Shown here in pieces: positions 12,301 to 30,960 of a DNA stretch of 38,406 nucleotides. Both the position numbers and the translations under genes were made by a program. Source of the DNA: Nitrospirae bacterium GWC2_57_13 (GTDB taxonomy: Bacteria > Nitrospirota > UBA9217); contig MHDZ01000019.1 of the NCBI GenBank assembly GCA_001805055.1, positions 1 through 38,406 on the forward strand, given 5' to 3'. Every line of letters begins with the position of its first letter. Positions within the stretch are counted from its first letter, which is position 1. The notes beneath the pieces were generated by a model. It was not told where the DNA came from, made no database searches, and worked only from the letters and a program-made list of their open reading frames with translations.

Positions 12301-12320
12301 TACAAGCTCCAAAGAGAAAG

Positions 12321-13113: not shown

Positions 13114-13136
13114 CACGTATACTTGCGTATGCGATT

Positions 13137-13210
13137 GTAAATTGAAAATTAGAAATTGCAAAAGGGATGCGGTTCATCTTGAAATTTACAATTTGAGATT
13201 TTCAATTTCC
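13137..13210. repeat. AT-rich inverted repeat in the hyfE-hyfF gap
   Basis: Arms at 13137-13163 and 13179-13210 are near reverse complements built of AAATTGAAAATT-type blocks (left TGAAAATTAGAAATTG, right ATTTGAGATTTTCAATTT). It fills most of the 114-base gap and ends before the hyfF Shine-Dalgarno. It appears to be an interspersed repeat and not a terminator. Confidence 0.6.
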
Positions 13211-13227
13211 ACTGTAATGAGGTTTTA

Positions 13228-14676: not shown

Positions 14677-16244
14677 GCAGACTGAAAGATATCGTTGTAG
14701 CGGCGCTGGGCAAAGATGTGAAGCCCGATGACACCCTGTCTCCCGCTTCCGTGATATCGCTCTTCATACCGCGGGAACAGTTCGCGGAAGCAACAAAGGC
14801 GCTCAAAAATGAGTATGCCCTGCTTGCAGCCGAGTGGGCGACAGACGAGACGTCCTTTAGCAGGGGATTCGGGATCTACGCCTGTTTCCGGAAGGAAATG
14901 GAATACCTCATCGTGAGAACGTCCGCGCCTGTTGATGATCCGACATTTCCCAGCCTTACGAAGAAATTCGCAGCCGCATTCCGGTTCGAACGCCAGATCC
15001 AAAGCCTGATGGGCGTGACGGCGATCGGCAATCCGGACAGCCGTCCGTGGATCAAGCACGAAGACTGGCCCGCGGATGCCTGGCCGCTCAGGAAATCATT
15101 CGATGCGTCGAAACCGCTGCCCCGCGTTCCCGGTGAATACCAGTGGATCCGCGTGAAAGGAGAGGGGATCTATGAAATCCCGGTGGGGCCAGTTCACGCC
15201 GGCATCATTGAACCGGGCCATTTCCGATTCCAGGCCATGGGTGAGGATGTCATCAACCTCGAAGAAAAGCTTGGGTACGTGCACAAGGGCATCGAGAAGC
15301 GGTTTGAATCGCTCTCCTGGCATGAGGCGTCGCGCTTGGCAGGCCGCGTGTCGGGCGACAGTACGGTCGCCCACAGTCTGGCCTACTGCAGGGCAGTGGA
15401 GGCATTGACCGGATCGCCGGTCCCGGACCGGGCCATGTGGCTGCGCGCCCTGTTCCTTGAGCGGGAGCGGATCGCCAATCATCTCGGCGACCTGGGCGCC
15501 ATCTGCAACGATGTGGCCTTTGCATTCCTCCTCTATCAGTTCTCCCGGCTCAGGGAGATCGTGCTGCGCGCGAACCTGAAGCTTTTCGGCCACCGGCTTC
15601 TGATGGACCGCGTCGTGCCGGGCGGGGTGGCCGCGAACATCGATGCAGCGGGCATTCAGGCGATCCACCAGGAACTGGACTGGCTGGCAAGGGAATTCGA
15701 ACGGCTTGTGCTGATCTACGATGAGAACTCGTCCGTCGAGGACCGGGTGAGGGATACGGGCGTGCTGAAGCCCGAGCAGGCGAGGGACCTCTGCGTCGTG
15801 GGATACGTGGCGCGGGCGAGCGGGTTGAACCTTGACTGCCGCATTCACCAGCCCTTCCCGCCCTATGACCGGATCAGCGTGAACGTGCCGGTGCTTGTCT
15901 CCGGTGACGTCCATGCGCGGGCCTGGGTCAGGGTCGAGGAGGTGCGGGAGTCCATGCGGATCATCCGCGAGGTGCTGAACACCCTGCCCGAGGGCGGGAT
16001 CATGAATCCCCTCAGCGATCCCGGGCCAGACCGCGCCGGCTTCGCGGCAGTGGAAGGGTGGCGCGGCGAGACCCTGTACTGGGTCCAGTCGGGGCCGAAA
16101 GGGGAGATCAACCGCTGCATGGTCCGGGACCCGTCGAGCCTGAACTGGCTGGGGCTCGAGCAGTGCATCCATGGCAACATCGTGCCGGATTTCCCGGTGT
16201 GCAACAAGAGCTTCAATCAGTCGTATTCGGGGCATGATTTATGA
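14673..16244 (+). CDS. hyfG: HyfG/NuoCD-like large subunit lacking [NiFe] ligands
   Basis: A 523-residue fusion of a NuoC-like domain (residues 1-130) and a NuoD/HycE-like large subunit. Family landmarks are clear: GPVHAGIIEPGHFRF at 172-186 and LGYVHKGIEKRFE. The proximal CxxC of [NiFe] enzymes (CGICGFAHS) is here SGDSTVAHS (Ser227, Ser230), and the C-terminal CxxC (CYSCTDR) is here SYSGHDL (Ser517, Gly520). All four metal-binding cysteines are missing, so it cannot hold a normal [NiFe] centre. The C-terminus ends where mature hydrogenases are cut, with no cleavable tail. This fits Ehr (Ech-hydrogenase-related) complexes described in Geobacter and others. ATG at 14673 overlaps the hyfF stop by four bases; a longer upstream frame is only a shadow of hyfF. 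Confidence 0.92.
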   Translation: MSRLKDIVVAALGKDVKPDDTLSPASVISLFIPREQFAEATKALKNEYALLAAEWATDETSFSRGFGIYACFRKEMEYLIVRTSAPVDDPTFPSLTKKFAAAFRFERQIQSLMGVTAIGNPDSRPWIKHEDWPADAWPLRKSFDASKPLPRVPGEYQWIRVKGEGIYEIPVGPVHAGIIEPGHFRFQAMGEDVINLEEKLGYVHKGIEKRFESLSWHEASRLAGRVSGDSTVAHSLAYCRAVEALTGSPVPDRAMWLRALFLERERIANHLGDLGAICNDVAFAFLLYQFSRLREIVLRANLKLFGHRLLMDRVVPGGVAANIDAAGIQAIHQELDWLAREFERLVLIYDENSSVEDRVRDTGVLKPEQARDLCVVGYVARASGLNLDCRIHQPFPPYDRISVNVPVLVSGDVHARAWVRVEEVRESMRIIREVLNTLPEGGIMNPLSDPGPDRAGFAAVEGWRGETLYWVQSGPKGEINRCMVRDPSSLNWLGLEQCIHGNIVPDFPVCNKSFNQSYSGHDL

Positions 16245-16255
16245 GGCGGACGATG

Positions 16256-16357
16256 TAACCACAGGCGCTTCGCGCATACGGATGAACACAGATTTTACAT
16301 CAGGAATCATTTTAAGAATATCGCCTTCGTTGTTCTATCCGTGTTCATCCGTGGTTA
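16256..16357. repeat. Interspersed inverted repeat, ACGGATGAACAC type
   Basis: Left arm 16256-16293 (TAACCACAGG, then ACGGATGAACACAGAT) pairs with right arm 16337-16357 (ATCCGTGTTCATCCGTGGTTA), the left arm carrying a short insertion. A further CTCCGTGACTCCGTGG stretch follows. It occupies most of the 173-base gap before the small-subunit gene and belongs to the same family as the dyads at 1652 and 20750. Confidence 0.65.
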
Positions 16358-16417
16358 TACTAGCGTTGCTTCCCTCCGTGACTCCGTGGTAGATTTGTTT
16401 TTTCTATAGGGTGAACT

Positions 16418-16924
16418 ATGATCCGTATTCTGAAACAGATATTCCGTACCGGCATCGTTACCGAGCCGCTTGCGCCCGTTGCCGACCATGAGATCGAGAG
16501 GGTCGGCGCGGAATTGTCCAAGGTGATCAAGCAACGGTTCCGGGGAAGCCTCGCGATTCGCCAGGTGGACGCGGGTTCGTGCAACGGCTGCGAGCTCGAG
16601 ATCCACGCTATCAACAACCCCCTCTACAACTGCGAACGTTTCGGCATCCAATTCACGGCATCGCCCCGTTTCGCTGACCTGCTGCTGGTCACGGGACCGG
16701 TCTCGCACAACATGGAGATCGCCCTCCGGCGGACCTACGACGCCACGCCAACGCCGAAACTCGTGATCGCCCTTGGAGACTGTGGATGCAACGGCGGCGT
16801 GTTCGGTGAGAGCTACGCCTCGATCGGGCCTGTATCGAAGGTCATACCTGTAGATGCCTGCATACCTGGCTGCCCTCCTACCCCTGCGGCAATTCTGTTG
16901 GGGATACTGAAGCTTATCACATGA
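16418..16924 (+). CDS. hyfI: HyfI/NuoB-like small subunit
   Basis: A 168-residue protein of the NuoB/HycG family that carries the proximal (N2-type) [4Fe-4S] cluster next to the large subunit on the cytoplasmic face. Cysteines at 55 and 58 (SCNGCELE), 122 (GDCGCNGG) and 152 (CIPGCPPTP) correspond to the four cluster ligands, so this electron site should be intact even though the large subunit has lost its metal site. ATG at 16418 has AGGGTG a few bases upstream. It is the last gene of the operon; no HyfA/HyfH-type ferredoxin subunit and no maturation protease gene are present. Confidence 0.92.
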   Translation: MIRILKQIFRTGIVTEPLAPVADHEIERVGAELSKVIKQRFRGSLAIRQVDAGSCNGCELEIHAINNPLYNCERFGIQFTASPRFADLLLVTGPVSHNMEIALRRTYDATPTPKLVIALGDCGCNGGVFGESYASIGPVSKVIPVDACIPGCPPTPAAILLGILKLIT

Positions 16925-16971
16925 GGGTAAAACGGGAGACATCACTTTATCCAGCAGAAATGAACATATGA

Positions 16972-17001
16972 AAAAGGGTTGACCAATTGGTCAACCCTTT
17001 T
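16972..17001. terminator. Strong intrinsic terminator after the Ehr operon
   Basis: A perfect 13-base-pair stem AAAAGGGTTGACC-AATT-GGTCAACCCTTTT starts 47 bases after the hyfI stop and is followed by GTTTATCTTT. The A tract on the left makes it usable from both strands, so it can also end the minus-strand operon that runs towards it. Confidence 0.9.
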
Positions 17002-17233: not shown

Positions 17234-18604
17234 CTATCCTCCAGGCAGAAAATCGATGGGGTACAGGATGGTGATTCGGGAGACATTCTCCTTCGGCCCG
17301 AAGTGGAACTTCCTGACGCGCGCCACGATCTGGTCCACCAGTTCCGAAGACCTCAGGTCGTTCGACTGCACCGTACAGGCGGACACCTCGCCGCCGGTCT
17401 CGATGGTGATGCGCAGGACGATCCTGCCGCGCAGAGTCGGGTTCCTGCGCAATTCAGTATTGTACATGCGATAGAGCGTCGCCTTGTATTTGTCGAAGAC
17501 GATCTGGATCTCTTCGTCGGTTCGTGCCGGTCCGGATCCGGAACTGACCGGCCTCGCTTCTTCCTTGAGCTCCGCAACTTTACTCTCTACCCTGGTAAAA
17601 CTCACAGCGGCTATACGTTTCCCGCTGTCGCTGTCGATCGTGCGGCTGATCCCGGAATTACTGATGCCGCCGCTGGACCCGGCGCCGCTCCCTGAGGGCA
17701 AGGCAACAAGCGACCTGCCGGCACGGGCCTGACCTGCTGCAGGCTGGTTGCTCAGGCGCGCCTGCGCGCCGAGCTTTGTATCGGGAGCATCGTCCATCAT
17801 AGTTTGAAAACTCTTCTTGTAGGCCAGAACCCCCGTGCTCTCAGCCTTTTTGCGCGCGGCCTGGGTCTCCAGGGGGATTGGGTCGGGCCGGTCTTCTTTC
17901 GGCGCTTTTTCCTGCTGCTCGTTCTCCGGCTTCTTTTCTTCCTTGGGCGGCTCGGGTCTGTGCGGCTCCCTTCGCAGCATCGAGACCAGACGTTCCGGGA
18001 TTACGGCCACGACCTGCCGGACGGGCGCCGGCACCTTCAACAGGGTGATGAGCGCACCCAGGATGAAAGCGGCCAGCAAAGCGGAAAGCAAGGCCTTGCG
18101 GAAGCGCCGTTCGCTCTCTGCTTCCCTGGACCAGGGCATGTCGACCGTGCGATCAGGAACGGGAGATATGTCCCGCTCTACGACGAACTCCTCCTCGCGC
18201 AGCGCTTCTCGGTCGTACGCGTCCCGCACTTCGTCCTCGAGGATCAGGATCTCGTCGAGACACCGGCTGATCTGCTCCGTGAGCGAGGCCTGTTTTCCCA
18301 GGAGACCGTTCATCTCCTTCTCGAAGCGGGCGATCCGGTCCCTGGCCCGTTCCACGAGTCCCGCGGCCTGCCGGACCTCCTCGGCTCCTTCCCAGAAGAG
18401 CTCATTTGAGTTTCTCTCGGCCAGCGTATCGAGCGCATCGCAGACGGCCCGCACCGCGTCGAACCGCTGTTGCTCGGCGGAAGCCTTCTCGATCTCTGCC
18501 TCAAGAAGGCGCAGCTCGCCTTTCAGCTCGTCCCGCTTCCGCCGGACATGCTTGATCTGTTCGTGAAAAAGCGCCAGATCCTTCTCTAACAAGAATGAAC
18601 TCAC
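17234..18604 (-). CDS. AgmX/PglI- or TonB-like energy transducer with coiled coil
   Basis: A 456-residue inner-membrane protein. Residues 5-130 form a charged cytoplasmic coiled coil, residues 170-190 a single membrane segment (ALLSALLAAFILGALITLL), 205-245 a Pro/Glu/Lys-rich periplasmic linker, and 360-456 the AgmX/PglI C-terminal domain (FDKYKATLYRMYNTELRR, LRGRIVLRITI, GGEVSACTVQ). Such domains act like TonB: they carry force from an ExbBD-type motor to an envelope partner. The long cytoplasmic coiled coil is not found in ordinary TonB. GTG at 18604 has GGAG five bases upstream and follows the exbD stop by ten bases. It is the last gene of the minus-strand operon. A role like GltG/GltJ of myxobacteria is inferred. 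Confidence 0.8.
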   Translation of the reverse strand: MSSFLLEKDLALFHEQIKHVRRKRDELKGELRLLEAEIEKASAEQQRFDAVRAVCDALDTLAERNSNELFWEGAEEVRQAAGLVERARDRIARFEKEMNGLLGKQASLTEQISRCLDEILILEDEVRDAYDREALREEEFVVERDISPVPDRTVDMPWSREAESERRFRKALLSALLAAFILGALITLLKVPAPVRQVVAVIPERLVSMLRREPHRPEPPKEEKKPENEQQEKAPKEDRPDPIPLETQAARKKAESTGVLAYKKSFQTMMDDAPDTKLGAQARLSNQPAAGQARAGRSLVALPSGSGAGSSGGISNSGISRTIDSDSGKRIAAVSFTRVESKVAELKEEARPVSSGSGPARTDEEIQIVFDKYKATLYRMYNTELRRNPTLRGRIVLRITIETGGEVSACTVQSNDLRSSELVDQIVARVRKFHFGPKENVSRITILYPIDFLPGG

Positions 18605-18614
18605 GTCAGCTCCA

Positions 18615-19106
18615 TCAGCTTTTTTTTGCGGCTTTCTGAACGACCGCCAGGGAGATCTTTCCGTATCCCGAAGCCGTGCAGGTAGACAGTATCTTCTTCA
18701 ACACTTTGAACTGGATCGTTTTATCAGCAAGGACGGTGAGCTCCCTGTCTTCCGCGGCCGTCTGGGGAAGATGGGGTTCAAGCTGCCGGAGCCGTTCCGC
18801 CACCTCCGGAACCATCTCGCTCATGCCATCGAGCAGTTTGCGGGTGCTGACCACGGCTTCGTCCTGGACCAGCACGACTTCGGGGGTGACCACAATGTGC
18901 ACCGTTTCCCGCGGCCTGGTCTCGACGATGGAATAGGGGAGCCTGACCTGCGCTGCCGGCATGTCGCCGTTGAACGAGTGAAAGAGCAGAAAGCAGACCA
19001 GAACGGTAAGGATATCCAAAATCGGTATCAGGTTCAGACCGAGACCGGTGATCTGATGCTTCTTGCCGGCACGCACCATGCGCTTCATCCGTCTGGTGTC
19101 CTTCAT
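18615..19106 (-). CDS. ExbD/TolR-like motor protein (second copy)
   Basis: A 163-residue inner-membrane protein with a short basic cytoplasmic tail, one membrane helix (LNLIPILDILTVLVCFLLFHS) and a periplasmic domain. Asp31 in the helix matches the proton-carrying Asp of ExbD/TolR. The periplasmic half ends with a TIQFKVLKKILSTCTASGYGKISLA segment of ExbD type. Its ATG overlaps the stop of the upstream exbD by four bases. Two different ExbD proteins with one ExbB is the AglRQS arrangement. Confidence 0.85.
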   Translation of the reverse strand: MKDTRRMKRMVRAGKKHQITGLGLNLIPILDILTVLVCFLLFHSFNGDMPAAQVRLPYSIVETRPRETVHIVVTPEVVLVQDEAVVSTRKLLDGMSEMVPEVAERLRQLEPHLPQTAAEDRELTVLADKTIQFKVLKKILSTCTASGYGKISLAVVQKAAKKS

Positions 19107-19612
19107 GGCGCGTCTCCTATGGATATGTTCGGAAAGAGGGTCATCTTCCCAACTTCCCGGCCTTCTTCCGACCGCACGTCGGCAACGCGGACCGCATCCA
19201 TGACCTGGATCAGATGGTCGTATTCGATCGCCGGTTCCATCAGGACCGTCGCTTCCTGCTTCCCGGGGTACTGTTCTTTCAAACGAACGAGCAGCCTGGA
19301 CAGCGTTTCGATATCATATTTGCCGTCCTTCTTCGGTATCGTCGCCGCCACTCTCGATCCGCTGGAGATCTGCAGCCCTGTTTTTCGGATGATAACTTCG
19401 ATGGCGATGTCCGCTTTGCCGGCGGCAGGCACGGCGGCGCTCGTGGGGATGCTCAATTCTATGATCGTGATGCTCAGAAAGACCGCGGTGACGAGCAGGA
19501 AGATGACCAGTACGGTAAGGACATCTATCATGGGCGTCAGGTTCAGGACGTGCATGATATCCGTATCGATGGATTCCTGTTTTCTCCTTTTGTAATGAAG
19601 ACGCCGGGCCAT
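19103..19612 (-). CDS. ExbD/TolR-like motor protein (first copy)
   Basis: A 169-residue ExbD/TolR family protein. The basic tail is followed by the helix VLNLTPMIDVLTVLVIFLLV with Asp30 at the conserved proton site. The periplasmic domain includes LIQVMDAVRVADV, equivalent to the conserved C-terminal ExbD helix. It starts two bases after the ExbB stop and overlaps the next exbD by four bases, so the three motor genes are translationally coupled. The two copies differ clearly in sequence, which suggests distinct positions in the motor. Confidence 0.88.
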   Translation of the reverse strand: MARRLHYKRRKQESIDTDIMHVLNLTPMIDVLTVLVIFLLVTAVFLSITIIELSIPTSAAVPAAGKADIAIEVIIRKTGLQISSGSRVAATIPKKDGKYDIETLSRLLVRLKEQYPGKQEATVLMEPAIEYDHLIQVMDAVRVADVRSEEGREVGKMTLFPNISIGDAP

Positions 19613-19614
19613 GA

Positions 19615-20268
19615 TCAGCCCCTCTCGATCTGGTGCTTGCTGTAACTGGATATGGCATTCAGCACCTTTACCGATGCCATATCGAGGCTGTTCTCGAGCT
19701 GGCCGGTGGCCGTGGTGAGGCGGGCATGCAGGAGGAGCAGCGGGATCGCCGTCATCAGGCCGAAGGCGGTGCAGTTCATGGCCTCCGCAATGCTGGCTGC
19801 GAGCAGGGCGGCCTTCTCAGCGGGGCTCGCTGTGGCAACCGCGGCGAAGGCCTGGATAAGACCCATGATCGTGCCGAGCAATCCCAGCAGGGTGGCGATG
19901 TTCGAGAACAAAGCGAGGTAGGGTGTGCGCTTTTCCAGTTCGGAAGAAATCTCCATCATGCCTTCTTCCATGGCGATCTCAATATCTTCCCGCCGCCTGA
20001 CCGCCCCCTGGCGCGCCAATCCCATCACCAGCATCTGCGCCATGGTGGACTTGTCCTTGTTGGCCAGCTCGCGGGCTTTGTCGAACTCCCCCTTGGCCAG
20101 TACCGGATGCAGCTCGTCCCATGTCTTTTTATTCGCTTTCCTGGCGAAGCTCAAGTGCATCCAGCGTTCGACCGCTATTGCCAGGCCGGCCGCAAGCACG
20201 ATGAGAATAGGGTACATGAAGAACCCGCCCATCTGGAAAAACCGGATTATTGCGTAGAAGAATTCCAT
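19615..20268 (-). CDS. ExbB/TolQ/MotA-type proton channel
   Basis: A 217-residue inner-membrane protein that would form the stator channel using proton motive force. It has an N-terminal membrane helix (MYPILIVLAAGLAIAVERW), a cytoplasmic helical domain (residues 40-115), and two C-terminal helices with the family signatures FSNIATLLGLLGTIMGLIQAF and AEAMNCTAFGLMTAIPLLLL. GGGAGG lies eight bases before the ATG. It is followed immediately by two exbD genes. Neighbouring TPR genes and the AgmX-like transducer point to a dedicated trans-envelope machine and not to iron or B12 uptake. Confidence 0.9.
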   Translation of the reverse strand: MEFFYAIIRFFQMGGFFMYPILIVLAAGLAIAVERWMHLSFARKANKKTWDELHPVLAKGEFDKARELANKDKSTMAQMLVMGLARQGAVRRREDIEIAMEEGMMEISSELEKRTPYLALFSNIATLLGLLGTIMGLIQAFAAVATASPAEKAALLAASIAEAMNCTAFGLMTAIPLLLLHARLTTATGQLENSLDMASVKVLNAISSYSKHQIERG

Positions 20269-20314
20269 CTTGTGATCCTCCCTTTTGGCTCACGAGACAA
20301 CGAAGTTATTTTTC

Positions 20315-20408
20315 TAACCACAGACGTCTGCGCCGCACACGGTTAAAGACAAAAATCACGCTACTGCTTTCATCTGTGTGTCCCGACGAAGTCGGGACCC
20401 GTGGTTAC
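20315..20408. repeat. Interspersed inverted repeat with internal triloop palindrome
   Basis: TAACCACAG at the left and CGTGGTTAC at the right frame the element, with CACACGG and TCTGTGTG blocks inside. It contains a separate eight-base-pair hairpin GTCCCGAC-GAA-GTCGGGAC (20380-20398), whose core CGAC-NNN-GTCG is the same as that of the three hairpins before panD. It fills the gap between the small exported protein gene and exbB. Confidence 0.6.
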
Positions 20409-20414
20409 TCAAAG

Positions 20415-20705
20415 TCATTTCCTGGTGCTGATCTCATAGAGCTCCAGTTGCCGTAAGAACTCTTCCCGGTCCACGGGCACGGCGCTTTCGGTCAGCATCA
20501 GGTTCAGGCTGTTCTGCGCCCCGATCTCGGACCGCTTCCACGGCACAATATATAGTGATTTGGGGGCTTCCTCATTCCCGACGATCGACATGCCCGAAAG
20601 CTGTTTGGCCGCCGTCGCCTTGTTCTGTGAGCCCTTGTCCCTGGCCATGGTCGTGCCGGGCAATGCCAGAAGCAGACACAGACAAAGCACGAATTTTCGG
20701 CACAT
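20415..20705 (-). CDS. Small exported protein in the motor operon
   Basis: A 96-residue protein with a clear signal peptide (MCRKFVLCLCLLLALPGTTMA, cleavage probably after TMA at about residue 21). The mature part is about 75 residues with a conserved-looking centre, SIVGNEEAPKSLYIVPWKRS, and a charged helical C-terminus (REEFLRQLELYEI). AGGAGG lies six bases before the ATG, supporting a real gene. I do not recognise a named family. Its position between the TPR lipoprotein and ExbB suggests a periplasmic part of the same machine, possibly equivalent to a small Glt protein. That role is inference. Confidence 0.7.
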   Translation of the reverse strand: MCRKFVLCLCLLLALPGTTMARDKGSQNKATAAKQLSGMSIVGNEEAPKSLYIVPWKRSEIGAQNSLNLMLTESAVPVDREEFLRQLELYEISTRK

Positions 20706-20749
20706 AGTTTCCTCCTTCTTTCAACCCGGACAAACCGGAAAAGATATTG

Positions 20750-20845
20750 GCCACAGAGGACACCGAGATCACAGAGAAAACAGAAGTCGAAAACAATTCA
20801 GTAATCTTTTTAGCCTTTCTCTGTGTCCTCTGTGATCTCTGTGGC
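20750..20845. repeat. Interspersed inverted repeat, CCACAGAGGACAC type
   Basis: Arms of 29 bases (20750-20778 and 20817-20845) pair at 24 of 29 positions around a 38-base AT-rich loop. Each arm is itself built of CACAGAG and GAGATCACAGAG-like units. It is the clearest example of the repeat family in the window and nearly fills the gap between the TPR lipoprotein and the small exported protein. Confidence 0.8.
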
Positions 20846-20853
20846 AAAATTTT

Positions 20854-21507
20854 CTAACGTCCCAGCCGTATGCGCAGCTCGGCGATCCATATTTTGACCT
20901 TCTCGTCCTCTGGCATCAGCCTGCTGTACCGCTCGAACTGCTCGAGGGCGCACTTTGGATCATTCAAGTACAGATCGCAGAGGATTCCGAGGTTCTTGCG
21001 GGCGGGCAGATAGTCTGGAAAGCGGTCGACCGCCTTTTCATAGACCTCCCGCGCCTCATTGAATCTGCCGGTCTTGCGCAGCAGCAGCCCGTATTCATTG
21101 CCGGCGACCGGATGACCGGGTACCAAAGACAGGGCGGCTTTCATGTGTTGTTCGGCCGGCTCTGGAGCTCCGATCCGCAAGTAAGCGAGCGCAATGTCGA
21201 TATGCGGCGCCGAGAAGCGCGGCGACCGGTCGATCACCCGCTTCATCAGTTCAATGGCCTCTCCGTCCTTCCCGTCGTTCAGCAGAGCGACGGCGCGCTG
21301 GAACTCAGCGAGCGACGCGGCATCCATGCCCGCCTTCTCCCGGATGACGAAGCCCTGCCGGCCGTCCTTGAGCCGCTCCACGGACGGCCATGTGTTGCCG
21401 GCGCACCCGGAAAGAAGCAAAAAGAGGGATCCAAGACCAAAGACAATAGCGGTTTTCGCGCAAAGACGCACAGCCGCAAAGAAAGAATGCAAAGCATGTT
21501 GTCTCAT
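20854..21507 (-). CDS. TPR-repeat lipoprotein
   Basis: A 217-residue lipoprotein. A hydrophobic stretch (IVFGLGSLFLLLSGC) ends in the lipobox LSGC, giving a lipidated Cys with Gly at +3; no Asp follows the Cys, so outer-membrane sorting is plausible. The remainder has about four TPR units (AVALLNDGKDGEAIELMKR, APHIDIALAYLRIGAPEPAEQ, AGNEYGLLLRKTGRFNEA, PARKNLGILCDLYL). I chose ATG at 21507; the frame stays open to a TTG at 21633 and an ATG at 21621, neither with a good Shine-Dalgarno. The n-region (HSFFAAVRLCAKT) is encoded by a GCAAAGACGC-type repeat. In the motor operon it probably serves as a scaffold, comparable to GltE. Confidence 0.75.
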   Translation of the reverse strand: MRQHALHSFFAAVRLCAKTAIVFGLGSLFLLLSGCAGNTWPSVERLKDGRQGFVIREKAGMDAASLAEFQRAVALLNDGKDGEAIELMKRVIDRSPRFSAPHIDIALAYLRIGAPEPAEQHMKAALSLVPGHPVAGNEYGLLLRKTGRFNEAREVYEKAVDRFPDYLPARKNLGILCDLYLNDPKCALEQFERYSRLMPEDEKVKIWIAELRIRLGR

Positions 21508-21649
21508 GAGGAATATATCCCGGGCGGAACGCCTTGCTTCCCGGCATCCGCGGAGGAGCCTGCACCTGAAAGGGGCAATCGGGTGCGCGAGATCGCCTTT
21601 CGTTCTGAATTTATGTTCCATCGCTCTGAGCAATCGTATCCCCGTTCTT

Positions 21650-24600
21650 TCAAGGGGTGTCCTTGACGCCCGCGCTGTCCGCTCCCAGTTTCGGCTCTTC
21701 AGTCTGTTTCGCCTCGCTGGCTGCCGCGGGCTGCGGCCCCTGGTTCGCTTCGGTCTGCGCCTGCGCAGCTATGGCAGACTGCGGCACGGGCGGCCCTGGA
21801 TGGCCGATCGCGTACACATAGCTTTCGGGGGTGGCGATGACCCGGCTCTTTTCTTCCGGCTTGTCGTAGCGGGCCGGAACGAGCGCGGCCAGCTTCTGCA
21901 GGCTTTTGTCGATCCACTCGTTGTACACACCCCGGGGGACCAGTTCGAGATTGCTCTGATGCGTTGCAATGGCCTTCTCTTCGAATGGATACGCCTGCTC
22001 CTCGATGGCCAGGTCGTACTCTTCCCGTTCCAATGCGCTCAGTCCCGTCGGACGCTCGGACTCCTTCAGGTCCCTGCTGAACAGTGCGTAGATCTCGGCC
22101 AGATAGAAGGCCGCCGCTGCAGTGACGTCGCCGACCTCATAATCGATGAGGTCGGTGAACTGCTGGGTAGCGATCTTCATCAGTTGCCTTTTCCTGCTCA
22201 GGTTGGCCTCGAAGGGTTCGACCAGTTTGACCTCGGCGAACCGGCCGAAGGCCGGCTCGGCCAGGACCAACGCGGCCTGAGAGGCAATAAAGCGGGTCCG
22301 CTGCGTCCGCTCGCTGCCCGCGCCCGCGTCAATAGCCACGATCTGCCGGAGTTCAGCCAGATAGCCGTCCCGATCGTCCTTTTTCAGGAGCGCCGAAATT
22401 TTTTCACGAGTCTCGAGATTCTGTTCCGCGGGATGGGGGAAAAGATCCACGTATCGTCGATACGCTGCCAGCGCGCGCGCCTGGCCGCCTGCTTTCTCAT
22501 GCAGTTCCGCCGCCGTCAGCAAGGCCTCCCGCCTGAGCGCGTCATCCGTGGATTCTCGTTCCATGCGTTCATATTCGTCGGCTGCCAGGGAGAGCTCCCT
22601 CCACTCGCGATACGCATAGGCGATCTTCCTGGTCACCTCAGGCTGCAGCGAATTTCCGGGGAACAGGCTCCGAAAACGCTTCAGCACGTTTACCGCCATC
22701 ATCCAGTCCTTTGCCGCAATCAGGGCGGCGCCGCCATCGTACTCCGCGTTTTCCCTGATCTTGGAGGCCGGGGCCACGCTGCCTACCCGCAAAAAATGCC
22801 CTGCAGCTGCCATATGACTCCCTTGGGAAGTCGCCTCTTCGCCCTGCTTGTAGATCGCCGACGCAAGGTTGTCGGTCAATGCGGCGCGGCTTTTGTCCCC
22901 GGAAGGAAGCATCTCCAGCAGCCTCGCGTAGGCCTTTTCAGCTTCGCGGTAGCGGCGCAACTCGTAGTTTGCATGGCCGACCACCAGCCAGGCCTGGCGC
23001 ACCAGCTCCTTGTCGGCTCTGGGGAAATTATTGACAAGCGCGCGTGCCGCGGATGCGGCCGATACGTAATCCCGCATGTCGTACAGATCATCCGTAGCCG
23101 CCCCCAGAACGATCGCCGCCTTCTCATGCTCAAAATAGGTGCCGGCAAACTTGAGCGAGCTGCGCACGGCATCCTTCATCACGTGAGCTTTTGCCTCGGG
23201 CACTGCGGCGGTGAGGTGCTGGCGCCAGGAGTAGATTGCCGCGTAGCCCGCCTCCGAGGATCTTTTGTGGGAGGGGTATTCATATGCGGTCTTTTCGTAC
23301 TCCAATGCCGCAAGATCAAAGGATTGGTTCTCAAGATATAGGTCCGCCAGCATATAATTGGCCGCCGGAGAGTCGAGGTCCTTCGGGAAGGAGGTGAGGA
23401 GTTCCCGGTACCACTGCAGCGCTTCTTCGAAGTTTGTCTTTTTTTCCCTGATCAGCTTGGGGCTCTGATACAGCGCATGATAATGCTTGGCCAGATCCGT
23501 GAGGTTCGTTTTGAGCCAGGCCAGCACTTCCGGGCGCTTGGCCGGGTCGAAGTATTTCCAGTATTTGCCCTTGAGTCCGTACGTGTCGGCAAATCGCCTT
23601 TTCGCGTCGATGACCAGGCTGGGGAACCCTCCGGCAAGATGGATCTCGATCACCCGCATCTGGAATTGCGGCGATACGTTATGGAACGGATATCTGTCGA
23701 CAAAGGCGTTGTAGGTCGCAGCGGCGTCGCTATAGCGGTTTTTCTCGAAGTAGAATTCCGCGAGGTTGCTGTAGACGGCGTCCTCGTACCTGCGCGTGCC
23801 GTGGCGGGAGAAGTACTCGGTCACGGAGGCGCCGGCGAGATTGGATAGGCTCAGACTGATGACCCGGAATGTGTCATCCATGCGCTTTCGTTCCGCCTCG
23901 TCGCCGGTCTGAGCAAAGTCGAACCCCAGCGACACCTTGTGGTCCAGCAGGGCGATGAACTGCTCCAGAGCCTTGTCATAGAGTTCCTGCTTGTAAAAGG
24001 CCCAGCCCATCTTGTAGAGGGCAAGTTGAAAATAGGAAGAAGAGGCGCCCCTGGTCACGATGCTGCCGTAGGCCTCTTCGGCATCCAGGTAACGCCTGCG
24101 GGTGAAGAAATATTCGGCGCGCCGGAACTGCACTTCATCGACATAGCGGGAGTTCGGATGTTCGCGCTCCAGCCGGCCCATGACCTGCACGGCTTCGTCG
24201 ACCCGCCCCAGCTCCTCGCAGGCGCGGGCCAACTGATACAGCACCTGGTCGCTGCGTTCGTACGTCGGATACTCCTTCAGCACTTTCTTGTAAAGTTCGA
24301 TTGTCTCCAGGGCGCCGACCCGCTCCAGGTCATCGACTCCTTCGACAAGTCCTTGAGCTACGCGGGCATAGGCGGGCGGGCGCGTTTGAGACGCCCTTTT
24401 CTCGAAATCCGCCTGTGATTCGCCTGCCCGGTTCCTGGCGGGTACGGGAACAGATGAGAGCGTTGGTGCGCCGTCGGGACGCGCCGTGCGTTCCGGAGCC
24501 GGCAACGGTTTAGCCGGGCTCCGCCGCTCTGCTGCGGTATCTCCGGAAAGAAGGCCATAATCACTTTCGACCTTCAGATCTGCCAGGCGGCGAAGAGCCT

Positions 24601-24925
24601 CCGGCTTCAGAGCTGAATCCGGTGTCTCTTCCAGAAAGCGCCGGTAGCTCTCCATGGCCTTCTCTGGCGCGTTTTCGATCTTCTCTTCCTTGATCTCGAT
24701 CCGCGTGTTACGCAGCTGGGCGATCGTACCCTTGCCGGTCGTTTGACAGGCGCCCAGGAGCAGCGACAGCGCGAGCGCGACCCATCGAAGACGATCGAAC
24801 CGCCCTGCGATCCCGCCGAAGCGGGAAAGGGAAGTTCTATCCCCGGGGCCGAACGATGACCCTCGTGAAGCTCCCGCGTCGTGGTTCACGGAGCTTCCAT
24901 CCGTCATGTGAAATATATTTTGCAC
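21650..24925 (-). CDS. Very large TPR-rich lipoprotein
   Basis: A 1091-residue exported protein made almost wholly of helical TPR-like repeats. The N-terminus ends a hydrophobic run (RWVALALSLLLGAC) with a lipobox at about Cys60, so it is probably a lipoprotein. Repeats are visible from residue 85 (AMESYRRFLEETPDSALKPEA) and are dense from 210 to 780 (ELYKKVLKEYPTYERSDQVL, YLDAEEAYGSIVTRG). A proline-rich, low-complexity tail ends the protein. GTG at 24925 opens the frame; ATG at 24907 and GTG at 24889 are alternatives, and the last has the best Shine-Dalgarno (GGAAG). It follows the other large TPR gene by 53 bases. Length and position resemble GltD of myxobacteria, by recollection and not by alignment. 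Confidence 0.75.
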   Translation of the reverse strand: MQNIFHMTDGSSVNHDAGASRGSSFGPGDRTSLSRFGGIAGRFDRLRWVALALSLLLGACQTTGKGTIAQLRNTRIEIKEEKIENAPEKAMESYRRFLEETPDSALKPEALRRLADLKVESDYGLLSGDTAAERRSPAKPLPAPERTARPDGAPTLSSVPVPARNRAGESQADFEKRASQTRPPAYARVAQGLVEGVDDLERVGALETIELYKKVLKEYPTYERSDQVLYQLARACEELGRVDEAVQVMGRLEREHPNSRYVDEVQFRRAEYFFTRRRYLDAEEAYGSIVTRGASSSYFQLALYKMGWAFYKQELYDKALEQFIALLDHKVSLGFDFAQTGDEAERKRMDDTFRVISLSLSNLAGASVTEYFSRHGTRRYEDAVYSNLAEFYFEKNRYSDAAATYNAFVDRYPFHNVSPQFQMRVIEIHLAGGFPSLVIDAKRRFADTYGLKGKYWKYFDPAKRPEVLAWLKTNLTDLAKHYHALYQSPKLIREKKTNFEEALQWYRELLTSFPKDLDSPAANYMLADLYLENQSFDLAALEYEKTAYEYPSHKRSSEAGYAAIYSWRQHLTAAVPEAKAHVMKDAVRSSLKFAGTYFEHEKAAIVLGAATDDLYDMRDYVSAASAARALVNNFPRADKELVRQAWLVVGHANYELRRYREAEKAYARLLEMLPSGDKSRAALTDNLASAIYKQGEEATSQGSHMAAAGHFLRVGSVAPASKIRENAEYDGGAALIAAKDWMMAVNVLKRFRSLFPGNSLQPEVTRKIAYAYREWRELSLAADEYERMERESTDDALRREALLTAAELHEKAGGQARALAAYRRYVDLFPHPAEQNLETREKISALLKKDDRDGYLAELRQIVAIDAGAGSERTQRTRFIASQAALVLAEPAFGRFAEVKLVEPFEANLSRKRQLMKIATQQFTDLIDYEVGDVTAAAAFYLAEIYALFSRDLKESERPTGLSALEREEYDLAIEEQAYPFEEKAIATHQSNLELVPRGVYNEWIDKSLQKLAALVPARYDKPEEKSRVIATPESYVYAIGHPGPPVPQSAIAAQAQTEANQGPQPAAASEAKQTEEPKLGADSAGVKDTP

Positions 24926-24978
24926 TCGTACGCTACGCTTGCTCCGGATTCATTCGTCAGTTCCGGAATTCGTCGTCC

Positions 24979-26862
24979 TCATTGCGCGCCCTTCTCCTGG
25001 ACGTCGGTCTTGGCGGCGCGGTCGTAGCTGTCCGCCAGGGCAAAGCGCGCCTTGACCCGGAACTCTTCGAGCCGGTCACGCCGCCTGGTCAGTTCGTTCA
25101 CCGCCATGATTTCGAGCACCTGCCCCTGGCGTGCGAGCAACGCCCGCACGTTTCCCTGGGCGGCATTGATCCGCTGCCGCAAGCTGCGGATCACGTCGTC
25201 ATACCCCTCATAGCTCTCGGTGACGGTCTGGCGGGTACGCGCAAAGGCCCTGTGTTGCCGGTTGAGCACGTCCAGCTCATGGTCCAGTTCGCGAAGGTGC
25301 TTGCGGGCATCGGCAAAACGCTTGTCATATTCCGCATGAATGTTCCACACCAGCACTCCCCGCAGCCGCCTGATCTGGTGCCACAACCGTGGCGTGATCT
25401 TTTTTCTCCGGGGGGTCATCATCCTCTCCAGACGCGCCACCTGTTCGCTCATGATCCGTTCATCGGCAGTCATCATCAGCTCGGGGCGCGTCACTGTCAG
25501 CATTGCCTCCAGCTGTTGGGCGATCCGGTCCCGCTGCTCCGACCGCAGCCGCATCTGAGCGTCGAGCCGCTTGAACTCGCGATCGATCACGGGCAGCAGC
25601 GGCTTGTAATGCGCCTGGCGCAGGCGGATGATATCTCCAAAGGAGGCCAGGTCCCCCGACCACACCTCCAGTTTTTTCAGCAGCTGCTCAAGGTCGAGAT
25701 AATTCTTCAGTGACTCCTGAAAGTCGTCGGAGGCCATCAAATCGAGCAGGTAGAATGTCTCGGGCGTTACCGGCAGCTCGCGCAGACTGACGATCCAGCC
25801 CGCATCCTGGTGCAGATCCTCCTGCATCAGGCGCTTGAGGAATTTGCCTTCGCGGATACTGACGATAGAGGCATCGAGCCTGGCGATCTCTCCGCCGAAC
25901 GCTTTCAGTGCCGCTTCATACTTCAGTGCAGCCGTACTGTACACACCGAGCCTGCTATAGGCATAGGGGACGGCAAGCATGGCCTCCTGGACCGTCGACT
26001 CCGTGACCTTGCGCCCGGCCAAAATGCTCCACGGCACCAGGGCATTATCGAACCGTTCCCGCGACGCGTCGGCCCAGCCCGAGTTGAGCAACGACCGGTT
26101 GGAGAACGGACCGCTGAGACGCACCCTGTCGAGCACTTCCTTGGCGGCCTTGAAATGACCTTCGCTCAACAGCTTTTCGCCGAGGATAAGGTTCGCCTTG
26201 TCTTTGATCGCCAGCACGGCCCGATCATCGCTCTCAATCCGGCCGGTACGGTCCAGATACTTCCGGCCAGGCTGCTCGCTGCCGGCCCTGAGCAGTGCGA
26301 TCCCCAGATTGTACGAACTGAACCCTTCCAGCCCTTTCTCGCTCTGCAGGTCTTTCAGAATGGCGACGGCCTCGGCATTGCGACCGACGGTCAGAGCGAT
26401 ATTCGCGCGCAGAAAAGCCAGCTCGGAACGGATCGCTGCGGGAAGGTTGCCGCGGATGCGCTCGACAGCATGCAATGCTTCTTCCGGCCGGTCGTTCTGG
26501 AAGTTCATCCGGGCCAGGCGGAACAGGGCCTCGTTGCGCAGGTCGTCCTCGGCAGTGACATCGATCACCGCCTTCATGGCGCGCTCGGCGCGTTGATGCA
26601 TCCGGTATTTCAGCTCGAAGCCGCCCGCCATATGGCCGGGCTGGCTGGAAAACGCTTCGGTCGTTGATCCATCGGACCCGCGGGATCGCTCCTGGTGGGC
26701 ATCGAACAGGACGATGGCATCGAACCACTCGCCCTGATGAGCGTAATACAGGATGTCGCCGTAATCAGAGAGGTACTGTCTGCCTTTTACGTTGGCAATG
26801 CCGGCAGCGAGTGCAGGCGCTGCGAACAGCAGTGAAGCCAGCAATACAAAAAATCTTGCCAT
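24979..26862 (-). CDS. Large exported TPR/coiled-coil protein
   Basis: A 627-residue periplasmic protein. The signal peptide is clear (ARFFVLLASLLFAAPALA, cleavage near residue 19). TPR-like helical pairs run from about residue 85 to 330 (RNEALFRLARMNFQNDRPEEA, YNLGIALLRAGSEQPG, LAVPYAYSRLGVYSTAALKYEAAL). The C-terminal third is a charged coiled coil (LDAQMRLRSEQRDRIAQQLEA, LRELDHELDVLNRQ). ATG at 26862 follows the upstream gene by six bases with a weak AGGGA. Probably a scaffold spanning the periplasm; comparable in size and context to GltC. No enzyme motif is seen. Confidence 0.78.
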   Translation of the reverse strand: MARFFVLLASLLFAAPALAAGIANVKGRQYLSDYGDILYYAHQGEWFDAIVLFDAHQERSRGSDGSTTEAFSSQPGHMAGGFELKYRMHQRAERAMKAVIDVTAEDDLRNEALFRLARMNFQNDRPEEALHAVERIRGNLPAAIRSELAFLRANIALTVGRNAEAVAILKDLQSEKGLEGFSSYNLGIALLRAGSEQPGRKYLDRTGRIESDDRAVLAIKDKANLILGEKLLSEGHFKAAKEVLDRVRLSGPFSNRSLLNSGWADASRERFDNALVPWSILAGRKVTESTVQEAMLAVPYAYSRLGVYSTAALKYEAALKAFGGEIARLDASIVSIREGKFLKRLMQEDLHQDAGWIVSLRELPVTPETFYLLDLMASDDFQESLKNYLDLEQLLKKLEVWSGDLASFGDIIRLRQAHYKPLLPVIDREFKRLDAQMRLRSEQRDRIAQQLEAMLTVTRPELMMTADERIMSEQVARLERMMTPRRKKITPRLWHQIRRLRGVLVWNIHAEYDKRFADARKHLRELDHELDVLNRQHRAFARTRQTVTESYEGYDDVIRSLRQRINAAQGNVRALLARQGQVLEIMAVNELTRRRDRLEEFRVKARFALADSYDRAAKTDVQEKGAQ

Positions 26863-26868
26863 GAATAA

Positions 26869-27390
26869 TCAATCCCTGAGTGTGATCATGTGATCGTCTG
26901 AATCCACGAGACGAACTTCCAGAATCTTGGGCCCCTCATCCTTGCGGAACTTGAATTTTTCCGTCCTGCGGACACCGGAGCTGCCCTTGGCCCTGCCTGT
27001 CATAAGCACCTGCAAGCCGTGCTCGCCGGAACTAATGTTGCCGACATAGATACGCTGCATGCCACCCTTCTGCAGCGCCTCGAGCTCCCGTAACGTATAG
27101 AGGTGCTGTGCGACCATCTTGCCGTCCAGCTGGATCTCGATTGAATCAAGGCGAAATTTCTCCACGTTGTCCAACGACACATAGACCGCAACCTGTGTAC
27201 TGGATGGATACAGCAGCTTCTCTTCGAGCAAACGCATTTGCACCCCGAGATTGAGCGTTTCAGCCTTGATCTCCTGGACCTGTTCATCCAGGCTCTTGAT
27301 CTGTCCCTTGGAGACCTCCTCCGCAGAGACAGGGAAACTGAGCATCACGATCGCAATGGAAAGAATGAACCCTCGTAAAAGGATGAACAT
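26869..27390 (-). CDS. Exported protein of unknown family, first gene of the motor operon
   Basis: A 173-residue exported protein. ATG at 27390 is chosen because AGGAGG lies five bases upstream; a longer frame begins at 27420. The signal peptide (FILLRGFILSIAIVMLSFPVSA) is followed by a short coiled coil (QIKSLDEQVQEIKAETLNLGVQ) and a beta-rich domain (VAVYVSLDN, DSIEIQLDGKMVAQHLYTL, IYVGNISSGEHGLQVLMTG). I cannot name the domain. As the first gene behind the riboswitch-like leader, it likely acts in the same periplasmic assembly as the TPR proteins. Confidence 0.72.
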   Translation of the reverse strand: MFILLRGFILSIAIVMLSFPVSAEEVSKGQIKSLDEQVQEIKAETLNLGVQMRLLEEKLLYPSSTQVAVYVSLDNVEKFRLDSIEIQLDGKMVAQHLYTLRELEALQKGGMQRIYVGNISSGEHGLQVLMTGRAKGSSGVRRTEKFKFRKDEGPKILEVRLVDSDDHMITLRD

Positions 27391-27468: not shown

Positions 27469-27507
27469 AAAAAAAAGCCGCCAGAAGAGTACTATTCTTT
27501 GGCGGCT
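27469..27507 (-). terminator. Intrinsic terminator in the leader of the motor operon
   Basis: Read on the minus strand, stem AGCCGCCA...TGGCGGCT (27507-27500 and 27483-27476, with further AAG/CTT pairing inside) is followed directly by eight Ts. It lies upstream of the first gene and downstream of the promoter and structured leader, so it can only act as an attenuator of the operon. A second GC-rich dyad (GAGTCGCGC type) follows at about 27441-27463. Confidence 0.85.
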
Positions 27508-27604
27508 CGACCAGCATATAAAACAGCAAGACCGTTGTGATGGTTACTGTTCTCAATTAGCTTCGTAGCTCTGCGCCCCCCGGTTCCTATAGGTTTGCTC
27601 TGAG
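27508..27604 (-). promoter_or_regulatory. Structured leader resembling a c-di-GMP-I (GEMM) riboswitch
   Basis: On the minus strand the leader contains AGAGCAAACC, then GGGGGCGCAGAGCTACG and GAAGCTAA, in the order of the GEMM-I aptamer core (GCAAACC, GACGCAAAGC, ACGGGTCTAA). AGC pairs with GCT to close the first stem. A long second stem can form: CGA/TCG, AGC/GCT, AACAG/CTGTT and ACC/GGT in succession. Differences are a missing GNRA-loop P1b helix and a G in place of the middle A in GCAAAGC. A sigma70 promoter lies just upstream and an intrinsic terminator just downstream. If correct it would switch the trans-envelope operon by a cyclic dinucleotide; it might instead be another attenuator class. 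Confidence 0.45.
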
Positions 27605-27649
27605 CAAAGGAGTAGAAGAGATGTGAAATGCGGGTCTAGCGAGCCTGGT

Positions 27650-27678
27650 AATTTATCATTTGAAAAAGCTGTTGTCAA
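27650..27678 (-). promoter_or_regulatory. Sigma70 promoter of the motor operon
   Basis: On the minus strand TTGACA (27678-27673) and TAAATT (27655-27650) are separated by 17 bases. The predicted start near 27643 places about 40 bases of RNA before the structured leader. The perfect -35 and ideal spacing make this one of the best promoters in the window. Confidence 0.7.
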
Positions 27679-27858: not shown

Positions 27859-27882
27859 AGCCGCACATATAGAGAAAAAAAC

Positions 27883-28046
27883 GCATCCAGGCGAAGGGAA
27901 TCCCGTGTGAATCGGGAGCGGACCCGCCGCTGTGATCCCTGTCCCGTTTCAAACGGGATACGACCTCTGTCAGTAAAGCCACTGTCCTGCATCATGGGAT
28001 GGGAAGGCAGGCAGGGGAGGGAGAGCCAGAAGACCTGTCTGGATGC
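27883..28046 (+). promoter_or_regulatory. Cobalamin riboswitch upstream of btuF
   Basis: The P1 helix is GCATCCAG (27883-27890) with CTGGATGC (28039-28046). The B12 box AGCCAGAAGACCTGTC lies at 28024-28039. The upstream conserved core is present: AGGGAATCCCGTGTGAAT, then GGAGCGGACCCGCCGCTGTGA. The variable arm (TGTCCCGTTTCAAACGGGATACG) is a perfect hairpin. A strong terminator follows, so B12 should reduce transcription of btuFCD and following genes. Confidence 0.93.
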
Positions 28047-28099
28047 TTCTCGCACGGTCTTCGGTGATAAGGCTCTGTGTGGGTTAATATGCATCTATT

Positions 28100-28134
28100 A
28101 ATCCCCGGTCTTCTGAGAAGGCCGGGGATTTTTG
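28100..28134 (+). terminator. Riboswitch-controlled intrinsic terminator
   Basis: A stem AATCCCCGG (28100-28108) with CCGGGGATT (28122-28130) is followed by TTTTTGTTT. It lies 54 bases after the riboswitch P1 helix and before btuF, the expected expression platform of a transcription-control cobalamin riboswitch. Confidence 0.88.
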
Positions 28135-28337
28135 TTTCTATGGACCGTAAAGCGAGCGGAAACGAGACGCGGGATCGCGAGATTTGCCGCAGATTGACGC
28201 TGATCAACGCAGATCCATGCGAGGAGAGGGATAAGGAACAGCCAGGAAAAAGGCGAATCTACTTGGCCGCGAAGGGGCGCGGAGTAGGGCGAGAAGATGG
28301 GAAGCTAGGAAGTTAGGAAAGTAAGAAGGAATAACAA
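28135..28337 (+). other. Spacer between B12 terminator and btuF with repeat debris
   Basis: Two hundred bases without a supported gene. It holds half of a repeat of the ACGGATTAACACAGAT kind (GCCGCAGATTGACGCTGAT, 28188-28206) and a purine-rich run (GGGAAGCTAGGAAGTTAGGA) near 28300 that resembles 4035-4060. The btuF Shine-Dalgarno AAGGA lies at the end. Confidence 0.4.
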
Positions 28338-29186
28338 TTGATCAGAGCCTTTTTCCCCATAAGCATCATTGTATTGGCAATAAGCGGTCATGGCCATGCT
28401 GCGGAACCAGCGACCTCGGCCCAACGGATCATCTCGCTGGCGCCGAGCACCACGGAGACGCTTTTTGCCCTGGGCCTGGGAGACCGGATCGTTGGGGTGA
28501 CGAGCTTCTGCGACCAGCCTGTGGCGGCGCGCGCAAAGCCCAAGATCGGCGGCATGTCCAATCCTTCCCTGGAGGCGATCGTCACCCTGAAGCCGGACCT
28601 GGTAGTCATGACCATGGACGGCAATCCAAAAGAGGTTGAGGAACGCCTGCGGTCAATGGGGATCAGGACCTACGTCTGGAAAGCACGGACGCTTGCGGAA
28701 CTTCCGGAAGGGATACGCGATCTGGGGAGAGCTGTCGGAGCAACGGAACGATCGGACCGAATGGCGCGTGAGCTGCGGGACAGCATCGAGCGCTTCAAGA
28801 AAAAGCATGCTGAGCGCCCAGGCAAGGCGCAGGCCCGCAAGAAAGTGCTCTTGATGATCTGGCCTGAGCCACTGATCGTCGCAGGACCGGGCACGATCAT
28901 GGACGATGCTGTTCAACTGCTCGGCCATGAGAACATCGCGGCTGGTTCAAAAACACAATATCCGAAATACTCCCTTGAAGAGGTCATCCGTCAGGCGCCC
29001 GACGTGATCTTCGTCGGAAAGGCATCGGGCATGGACATGCAGGCCGTGTCACAAGGGATATTGAAGCGGTTGTCGTCGGTCCCGGCAATGCGCACGGGAT
29101 CGATCTTTTATATCAGCGACAGCCTGTACCGGCTGGGACCCCGGGTCGTATCAGGGATCGAGGAGTTGGCTGCATGCGTACAGTAA
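28338..29186 (+). CDS. btuF: Cobalamin ABC transporter, periplasmic binding protein
   Basis: BtuF captures corrinoid in the periplasm and delivers it to BtuCD. The 282-residue protein has a signal peptide ([15 protein letters not shown]) and the class III binding-protein fold: an N-lobe with [20 protein letters not shown] and LKPDLVVMT, one long linking helix, and a C-lobe with [16 protein letters not shown] and [11 protein letters not shown] at 28338 is preceded by AAGGA at seven bases; no ATG lies nearby in frame. The gene overlaps btuC by 13 bases. It lies behind the cobalamin riboswitch, which fixes the substrate class better than the sequence alone. Confidence 0.9.
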
Positions 29187-30139
29187 GGATGGGCATATTC
29201 ATCGCGGTCGCAGTTCTGCTGTTTCTGCTGGCCCTTTTTGCAGGTCCGCGCATGATCAATCCCTTCGGTATGAGCACGACGGAGCGTGAGATCCTCCTTT
29301 CCATCCGCCTGCCGCGCGTGGTCGTGGCCATGTTGATCGGCATGGCCCTGGGCGCTTCCGGCGCGGTGCTGCAGGGCGTGCTCAGGAACCCCCTGGCTGA
29401 CCCGTACATCCTGGGTATCTCGAGCGGCGCATCCCTTGCCGCCGCTCTCGGCCTGCTGACAGGATTCTATGCCTTCGGGAGCGTGAGCATCCCCTTGACG
29501 GCCTTCATCGGGGCTGCGCTGGTCAGCCTCCTCGTAGGCGCCTTTGGCTGGAAGCGCGGGGGATTATGGCCTGAACGGCTGCTGCTGGCCGGGATTGGCC
29601 TGAACTTCCTGTTCAGCGCGGTCCTGATGCTGCTCCTGAGCGTGTCGAGCGATGAAGGCCTGCGCAGGGCGATCCTCTGGATGTTCGGGGACCTCTCGAT
29701 GGCGGACTGGACGCTGATCCCGTCAGCCTCGCTGTTCATGGTGATCGGCCTGGGCGTGGCGTTTGCTCGGTCCAGGGCGCTGAACGCGCTGATCCTTGGC
29801 GACGAATTCGCCCACAGCCTCGGGTTCGCAGTCCAGCGGGAGCGGCTCATGATGTTCGGTGCGATCGCGCTCATGACCGCGGCGTCCGTTGCGCTCGGCG
29901 GCACCATCGGGTTCATCGGCCTGCTCATGCCGCATATCGTCCGGTTCCTGCTCGGGGCGGACAGCAGGGTGCTGATCCCGGCCTCGGCAGTTGCGGGAGG
30001 GGCGTTCCTCTGCCTGGCTGATCTGATCGGGAGGTCCATCATGCCGCCCCTGGAACTGCCTTCAGGCACGGTGACGGCGATCATCGGTGCGCCCTATTTT
30101 CTCTATCTCCTCAGGAGGAAGGATGTCCTCAGCATATAG
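29174..30139 (+). CDS. btuC: Cobalamin ABC transporter, permease
   Basis: The inner-membrane permease of the FecCD family, 321 residues with about ten hydrophobic helices. Conserved signatures are [39 protein letters not shown], the Gly-rich coupling loop around [17 protein letters not shown] that contacts the ATPase, and the terminal [23 protein letters not shown] at 29174 has GAGGAG eight bases upstream within the end of btuF. It overlaps btuD by 17 bases. Forms BtuC2D2 with BtuF. Confidence 0.93.
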
Positions 30140-30899: not shown

Positions 30900-30960
30900 G
30901 CCATGGCCAGGGCATGGTATTCCGATGGAGCAATCGAGCAAAGATCGAGAAGGAGCAGCA

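Follow-up and report, generated by a model that had tools for sequence, protein, structure and literature searches.

An Agl/Glt-type core-complex operon behind a predicted c-di-GMP-I riboswitch, and the giant surface-protein genes beside its relatives

Luciano et al. (2011) described a core complex, made up of gltC, gltD, gltE, gltG, aglRQS, and one extra gene, that is clustered in Gammaproteobacteria, Geobacter, and Fibrobacter. They inferred that gliding in Myxococcus originated from this complex, and they left its function unassigned (PMC3169522). Wartel et al. (2013) considered it a possible basal transport machinery (PMC3858216). In the open-licence literature, we found neither experimental work on a stand-alone core complex nor a function that has been assigned to it. 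Here we describe an operon from a 38,406-nucleotide stretch of DNA from Nitrospirae bacterium GWC2_57_13 (the whole stretch is "the window" below). Judging from its gene set and synteny, this operon is very probably a stand-alone core complex and not the gliding machine of Myxococcus. So it belongs, by these same features, to a kind that was already known, as it matches the complex of Luciano et al.

The operon and its kinship with the core complex

The operon comprises nine minus-strand ORFs (17234-27390), which are transcribed in the order cc183, a 627-aa exported TPR protein, a 1091-aa TPR lipoprotein, a 259-aa TPR lipoprotein, p96, ExbB, ExbD1, ExbD2, and an AgmX-type transducer (Table 1). 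The first-pass annotation had placed all nine correctly, and the content that it proposed (one ExbB, two ExbDs, an AgmX-type transducer, three proteins with TPRs, and a pair of small exported proteins) is borne out by the reading frames and by Pfam and NCBIfam. Pfam identifies ExbB (E = 1.2e-23), ExbD (8e-17 and 6e-12), TonB_C (0.004), and many TPRs, and the NCBIfam model for the AgmX/PglI C-terminal domain (NF033768) matches the transducer with 61 bits, over a cut-off of 40. Two of the three TPR proteins have lipoboxes. The prediction that the 1091-aa protein is also a lipoprotein is an addition to the earlier reading (LLLGAC, with Cys60 invariant in 6 of 6 homologs).

The start of cc183 (MFILLRG, at 27390) is correct: its homologs start there, and an AGGAGG ribosome site lies just 5' of it. 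This protein belongs to no Pfam or NCBIfam family; its structural model has a pLDDT of 70, and a fold search gave no match below E = 0.001. p96 has no family match either. The model of the transducer, which was built from a single sequence and has low overall confidence, contains a confident hairpin, one transmembrane helix, a disordered linker, and a C-terminal alpha-beta domain, and a search of the PDB with the transducer gave no match.

Between the GltE-like gene and p96 there is a repeat-rich intergenic stretch (20706-20860, of the type GGACACGGAGAAA). Past the hairpin that follows the operon, a hydrogenase-4/complex I-like membrane complex is encoded on the plus strand (9222-16924). We rejected a 196-aa minus-strand ORF (16355-16945) as a tenth gene: it lies beyond this terminator and is antisense to the NuoB-like subunit of the hydrogenase (16418-16924, plus strand). 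Upstream of the operon and divergent from it is a B12 uptake locus (27872-35945). It encodes BtuF, BtuC, BtuD, a protein of the CobB/CbiA type, an ATPase that resembles diphthamide synthase, a TonB-dependent receptor, and a single TonB with no ExbBD beside it, and it has two cobalamin riboswitches.

Table 1. Features of the operon and its leader, in order of transcription (positions are those of the window)
Feature	Position	Strand	Remarks
Sigma-70-like promoter	27650..27678	-	TTGACA-17-TAAATT with TG extension; 10/12 matches, consensus scan only
c-di-GMP-I (GEMM-I) riboswitch aptamer	27498..27609	-	Covariance score 37.3 bits, barely over the gathering cut-off of 35
Intrinsic terminator	27469..27507	-	5' arm overlaps aptamer 3' end; hairpin -16.6 kcal/mol
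cc183	26869..27390	-	Exported: signal peptide, helix, all-beta domain; conserved as the machine's first gene
GltC-like exported TPR protein	24979..26862	-	627 aa; C-terminal helical region
GltD-like TPR lipoprotein	21650..24925	-	1091 aa; profiles, lipobox, tree
GltE-like TPR lipoprotein	20854..21633	-	259 aa; lipobox LLSGC, Cys77 invariant in 25/25
p96, small exported protein	20415..20705	-	Conserved GNxExPKxLYIVPWK motif; between GltE-like gene and exbB
ExbB/TolQ (AglR-like)	19615..20268	-	Pfam; Thr133 and Thr167 unchanged across 15 aligned members
ExbD1 (AglQ/S-like)	19103..19612	-	Asp30, where 44/49 orthologs have Asn
ExbD2 (AglQ/S-like)	18615..19106	-	Asp31; Asp in 50/50 orthologs
AgmX/GltG-like transducer	17234..18604	-	Cytoplasmic helical hairpin 3-139, TM about 165-188, Pro-rich linker, TonB-like C-terminal domain
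Palindromic terminator-like hairpin, perfect	16972..17001	.	Between operon end and convergent hydrogenase-type genes

The kinship with AglRQS-Glt/Nfs that had been proposed for this locus stood up in kind, but the TPR proteins give weak direct profile matches. The operon fits the core complex in its gene content and roughly in the sizes of its proteins, and its genes are in a single region. One ExbB and two distinct ExbDs are encoded in one operon, and the C-terminus of the transducer is clearly related to GltG (E = 9e-9) and to GltJ (2e-7). For the TPR proteins, generic TPR families outscore the Glt models, and the GltE and GltC matches are seen mainly at the level of the family. The GltE model matches 25 of 25 family members (best E = 2e-14), with the window's protein at 0.0024 and other TPR models scoring higher; the GltC model (NF033756) matches 6 of 26 (best 1e-6), and the window's 627-aa protein is not among them. 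The GltD model matches none of the operon's proteins; the GltD-like large TPR proteins form one family across phyla. cc183 and p96 match nothing in the Glt/Nfs profile searches. The models for GltA, GltB, GltF, GltH, GltI, and GltK match none of the nine proteins, and GltJ matches only the shared C-terminal domain.

With the core complex of Luciano et al., which is very common in sampled Gammaproteobacteria, the operon shares the motor, the TPR proteins, the TPR lipoprotein, and an AgmX/GltG-type transducer, all in one operon. It differs in having, in addition to the seven, the small genes cc183 and p96, a c-di-GMP-I riboswitch, Asp in both ExbDs, and a cytoplasmic coiled-coil hairpin on the transducer. 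We found no report of the last three for core complexes in the open-licence literature. The Agl-Glt machine of Myxococcus has the same motor of ExbB and two ExbDs, a GltG-type transducer, periplasmic TPR proteins, and a TPR lipoprotein, but the operon is without the group A genes (GltA/B/F/H/I/J/K), its transducer has no FHA domain, and there is no MglA-type gene within the window.

The arrangement of nine genes is far beyond chance because it recurs, in order, in another genus of the window's family and in many gammaproteobacterial genomes. The conservation of synteny, which had been put forward as a check, is thus strongly confirmed. In the other genus (genome G006), all nine genes are present in the same order, with 65-85% identity. 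Two more genomes of interest are fragmentary at this locus: G010 has the nine genes split between two contigs, and in G012 the contig ends after the first two genes. A contig search with the 627-aa protein found just one locus (L013) and led on to the Gammaproteobacteria, in which 43 of 185 genomes encode a GltD-like large TPR protein (E <= 1e-40) and most of the loci that we read have the full nine-gene order. In other families of the window's phylum, more distant machines have the order TPR, large TPR, p96-like, ExbB, ExbD, ExbD, AgmX, and several of them are without cc183 or the GltE-like gene; many of the compared genomes are drafts, so absences are provisional. In one such family (f8), a gene of the histone deacetylase family comes first in the machine operon (L017:10157-11284, tested with Pfam, and L019:10937-12052, by position and size).

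The leader and the motor

A c-di-GMP-I riboswitch lies ahead of the core-complex operon in three species of the window's family, which is new here. The window's aptamer barely clears the gathering cut-off, and the scores of the other two are higher (41.3 bits in G006 and 57.5 bits in G010). In all three species, the 5' arm of a strong terminator overlaps the 3' end of the aptamer, so we predict that the ligand causes antitermination, which would make the leader an ON switch. The terminator hairpins of G006 and G010 have energies of -22.6 and -16.3 kcal/mol. The base 5' of CAAAC in the aptamer is G, as in the c-di-GMP type rather than the cAMP-GMP type, and the ligand is presumably c-di-GMP. 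Overall, we think it quite probable that the operon is regulated by c-di-GMP. G010 seemingly has two c-di-GMP-I-like aptamer-terminator units in tandem (L015:2070-2490), the second of which is degenerate and below the Rfam threshold.

The two ExbDs of these machines are not alike. ExbD2 has the proton-carrying Asp in 50 of 50 sequences. At the aligned position, ExbD1 has Asn in 44 of 49, whereas both proteins have Asp in the window, G006, and G010. In Myxococcus, the corresponding change in AglQ (D28N) abolishes proton conductance and the machine stops (PMC3858216). Therefore it appears that, in most core complexes, just one of the two ExbDs works and the other is without the Asp. We found no report of a one-Asp core-complex motor in the open-licence literature (the AglS sequence was outside our comparison), and a natural motor of this type would bear directly on how ExbBD-type motors step. 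In the window, 48 of 66 bases are identical between the transmembrane segments of ExbD1 and ExbD2, versus 35-36 in relatives that have the Asn. This suggests gene conversion of the ExbD1 segment in the window's lineage, or convergence with ExbD2.

Clade I and its neighbors

In a tree of the GltD-like protein, the window, G006, and five gammaproteobacterial loci form a set of seven with support of 100, which we call clade I, and machines from other families of the window's phylum fall outside this set. The tree was made by a quick method from one gene (59 rows and 935 columns) and is rooted at the midpoint. Since the window's lineage is nested within a gammaproteobacterial group, the simplest reading is that its machine was probably acquired horizontally. 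It had also been suggested that the operon might be an ancestral system. This is not supported for the window's copy, which sits in a derived gammaproteobacterial clade and has derived features (the Asp in ExbD1, the riboswitch, and the cytoplasmic coiled coil). This coiled coil accounts for about 150 aa of the clade I transducer (about 455 aa) and is absent from shorter transducers.

Clade I machines outside the window's lineage are linked to genes for a giant DUF11 protein and a giant OmpA-beta-barrel protein, which is also new here. Each of the five gammaproteobacterial loci of clade I (L099, L101-L104) has a gene for a DUF11-repeat protein (up to 5022 aa) directly downstream of agmX, and the barrel gene comes next in the three of these with continuing DNA; the numbers are small, and since the loci are related they are not independent events. 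The barrel protein, of about 1700 aa, combines OmpA modules with an extended beta-barrel-like region. In one of the gammaproteobacterial genomes (G413), a c-di-GMP-I riboswitch that scores 70.8 bits lies between agmX and the DUF11 gene. The pair also occurs in the window's family: in G012 (L016:880-12314), a DUF11/SdrD_B protein of 2089 aa and an OmpA-beta-barrel protein of 1748 aa are encoded directly before cc183, and this barrel is 53-58% identical to the gammaproteobacterial ones, across phyla. Full-length or contig-cut barrels are found in G012, G265, G413, G383, G246, G347, and G332, and all of the gammaproteobacterial clade I genomes that we searched have one. In contrast, no full-length barrel was found among 35 genomes with other types of machine; in six of the 35, just the C-terminal part occurs, within different architectures.

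The window's own genome, which is 95.7% complete, has no barrel and no DUF11 giant above our cut-off. Nor did we find a barrel in G208, or a full-length barrel in G006 or G010. We therefore rejected the pair as the partner of the window's machine: whatever it does in relatives, the proposed cargo does not apply to the window's genome as it stands. The first-pass annotation had remarked on the absence of an outer-membrane barrel, and we agree that this is a true feature of the genome, because close relatives encode the giant barrel protein beside the machine. The relatives' pair gives the machine a likeness to the type IX secretion and gliding system of Bacteroidota (GldLM-SprA-SprB), which also combines a proton motor with a giant outer-membrane protein and a giant adhesin. 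They share this general logic only; the sequences gave nothing beyond a weak TPR-level match to PorW/SprE.

Outside clade I, genes for ApbE, a thioredoxin-like protein, DUF3570, and DUF4266 lie just upstream of many machines (L080:12648-15200, L098, L105-L107, L113, L115-L121, L127, and L141). The ApbE/DUF3570/DUF4266 set corresponds to the flavinylation genes described by Meheust et al. (2021); ExbB, TolQ, and TPR proteins go unmentioned in the main text of that paper (PMC8238504). We found no report in the open-licence literature that links core complexes to extracytosolic flavinylation. DUF3570 as a partner of the window's machine was rejected, as it was not found in the window's genome, G006, G010, G012, or G208.

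What the machine may do

We believe, with a probability of about 0.6, that this is a core complex from a mainly gammaproteobacterial subclade, switched by c-di-GMP and probably acquired horizontally, that pulls, moves, or helps to display a surface protein or polymer. Most likely, high c-di-GMP would let transcription read through the leader, so that the machine is expressed in the surface-attached state. ExbB and the two ExbDs would form a motor in the inner membrane that uses the proton gradient to move the AgmX/GltG-type transducer. The transducer would cross the wall to the GltC- and GltD-like TPR scaffolds and the GltE-like lipoprotein, which would face the outer membrane, with cc183 and p96 as periplasmic partners. 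The sequences themselves show which genes are present and in what order, their conservation, the channel residues, the family of the riboswitch, and, in relatives, the linkage to the DUF11 and barrel genes. From these we infer the assembly into one complex, the use of protons, the polarity and ligand of the switch, the cargo, and the movement.

As to the load, the neighboring barrel and DUF11 proteins would be the simplest choice in the clade I relatives, and from the gene linkage we tentatively favor them, although the odds are somewhat against it. A bolder version seems rather doubtful to us: that clade I machines are proton-powered exporters, anchors, or movers of giant DUF11 proteins via a dedicated barrel, gated by c-di-GMP and with only one proton-competent ExbD, and that the window's lineage kept the machine, restored the Asp in ExbD1, and lost or swapped the cargo. 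For the window's genome, the main alternative for the load is a polysaccharide, as for Nfs. The Agl-Nfs machine of Myxococcus, which is the only non-motility machine of the family whose work is known, uses the proton motive force to move the Exo spore-coat polymer (PMC3858216). It has the same class of motor and a reduced Glt-like set, and MreB is not needed. If the window's machine worked similarly, it would carry strands of capsule or exopolysaccharide around the cell surface and would need no protein cargo, and one relative (L079) does have a gene for a UDP-sugar dehydrogenase beside the machine. But no polysaccharide gene cluster adjoins the window's operon, the recurrent neighbors in clade I are giant proteins and not glycan genes, and control would be by a riboswitch here versus a sporulation program for Agl-Nfs. 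We consider a pure polymer mover rather unlikely.

We are more skeptical that the operon is a gliding engine in its own right that is switched on by c-di-GMP upon surface contact. Control by c-di-GMP would suit life on surfaces, and the motor and the core transducer are common to Myxococcus gliding, but it has been argued that the core set by itself is not enough to power gliding (PMC3169522), and there are no neighbors of the GltA/B/H/I/K types. It seems even less credible that the operon is an accessory energizer of the TonB or Tol type, for instance for the B12 receptor and TonB at 33454-35945. ExbB, ExbD, and the TonB-like C-terminal domain are homologous to parts of TonB-ExbBD and Tol-Pal, the genome has just two ExbB genes, and the TonB (35322-35945) has no adjoining ExbB-ExbD. 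On the other hand, two different ExbDs and giant TPR proteins are foreign to those systems, neither TolB nor Pal is in the operon (by gene content and Pfam), and no receptor is tied to the machine. The nine genes also stay together in genomes that have no B12 neighbors. We also rejected the adjoining BtuB/TonB as partners, as the B12 genes carry separate cobalamin riboswitches, are on the opposite strand, and are not conserved with the machine.

Since 2011, the core complex has been recognized as the root of the gliding and sporulation motors of Myxococcus, and about a quarter of the sampled Gammaproteobacteria have it. Our comparison offers two testable links, one between clade I and both c-di-GMP riboswitches and the DUF11/OmpA-barrel pair, and the other between many of the other machines and the ApbE/DUF3570/DUF4266 flavinylation set. 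The giant surface proteins that are encoded beside the window's relatives provide a concrete guess as to what this widespread machine moves.
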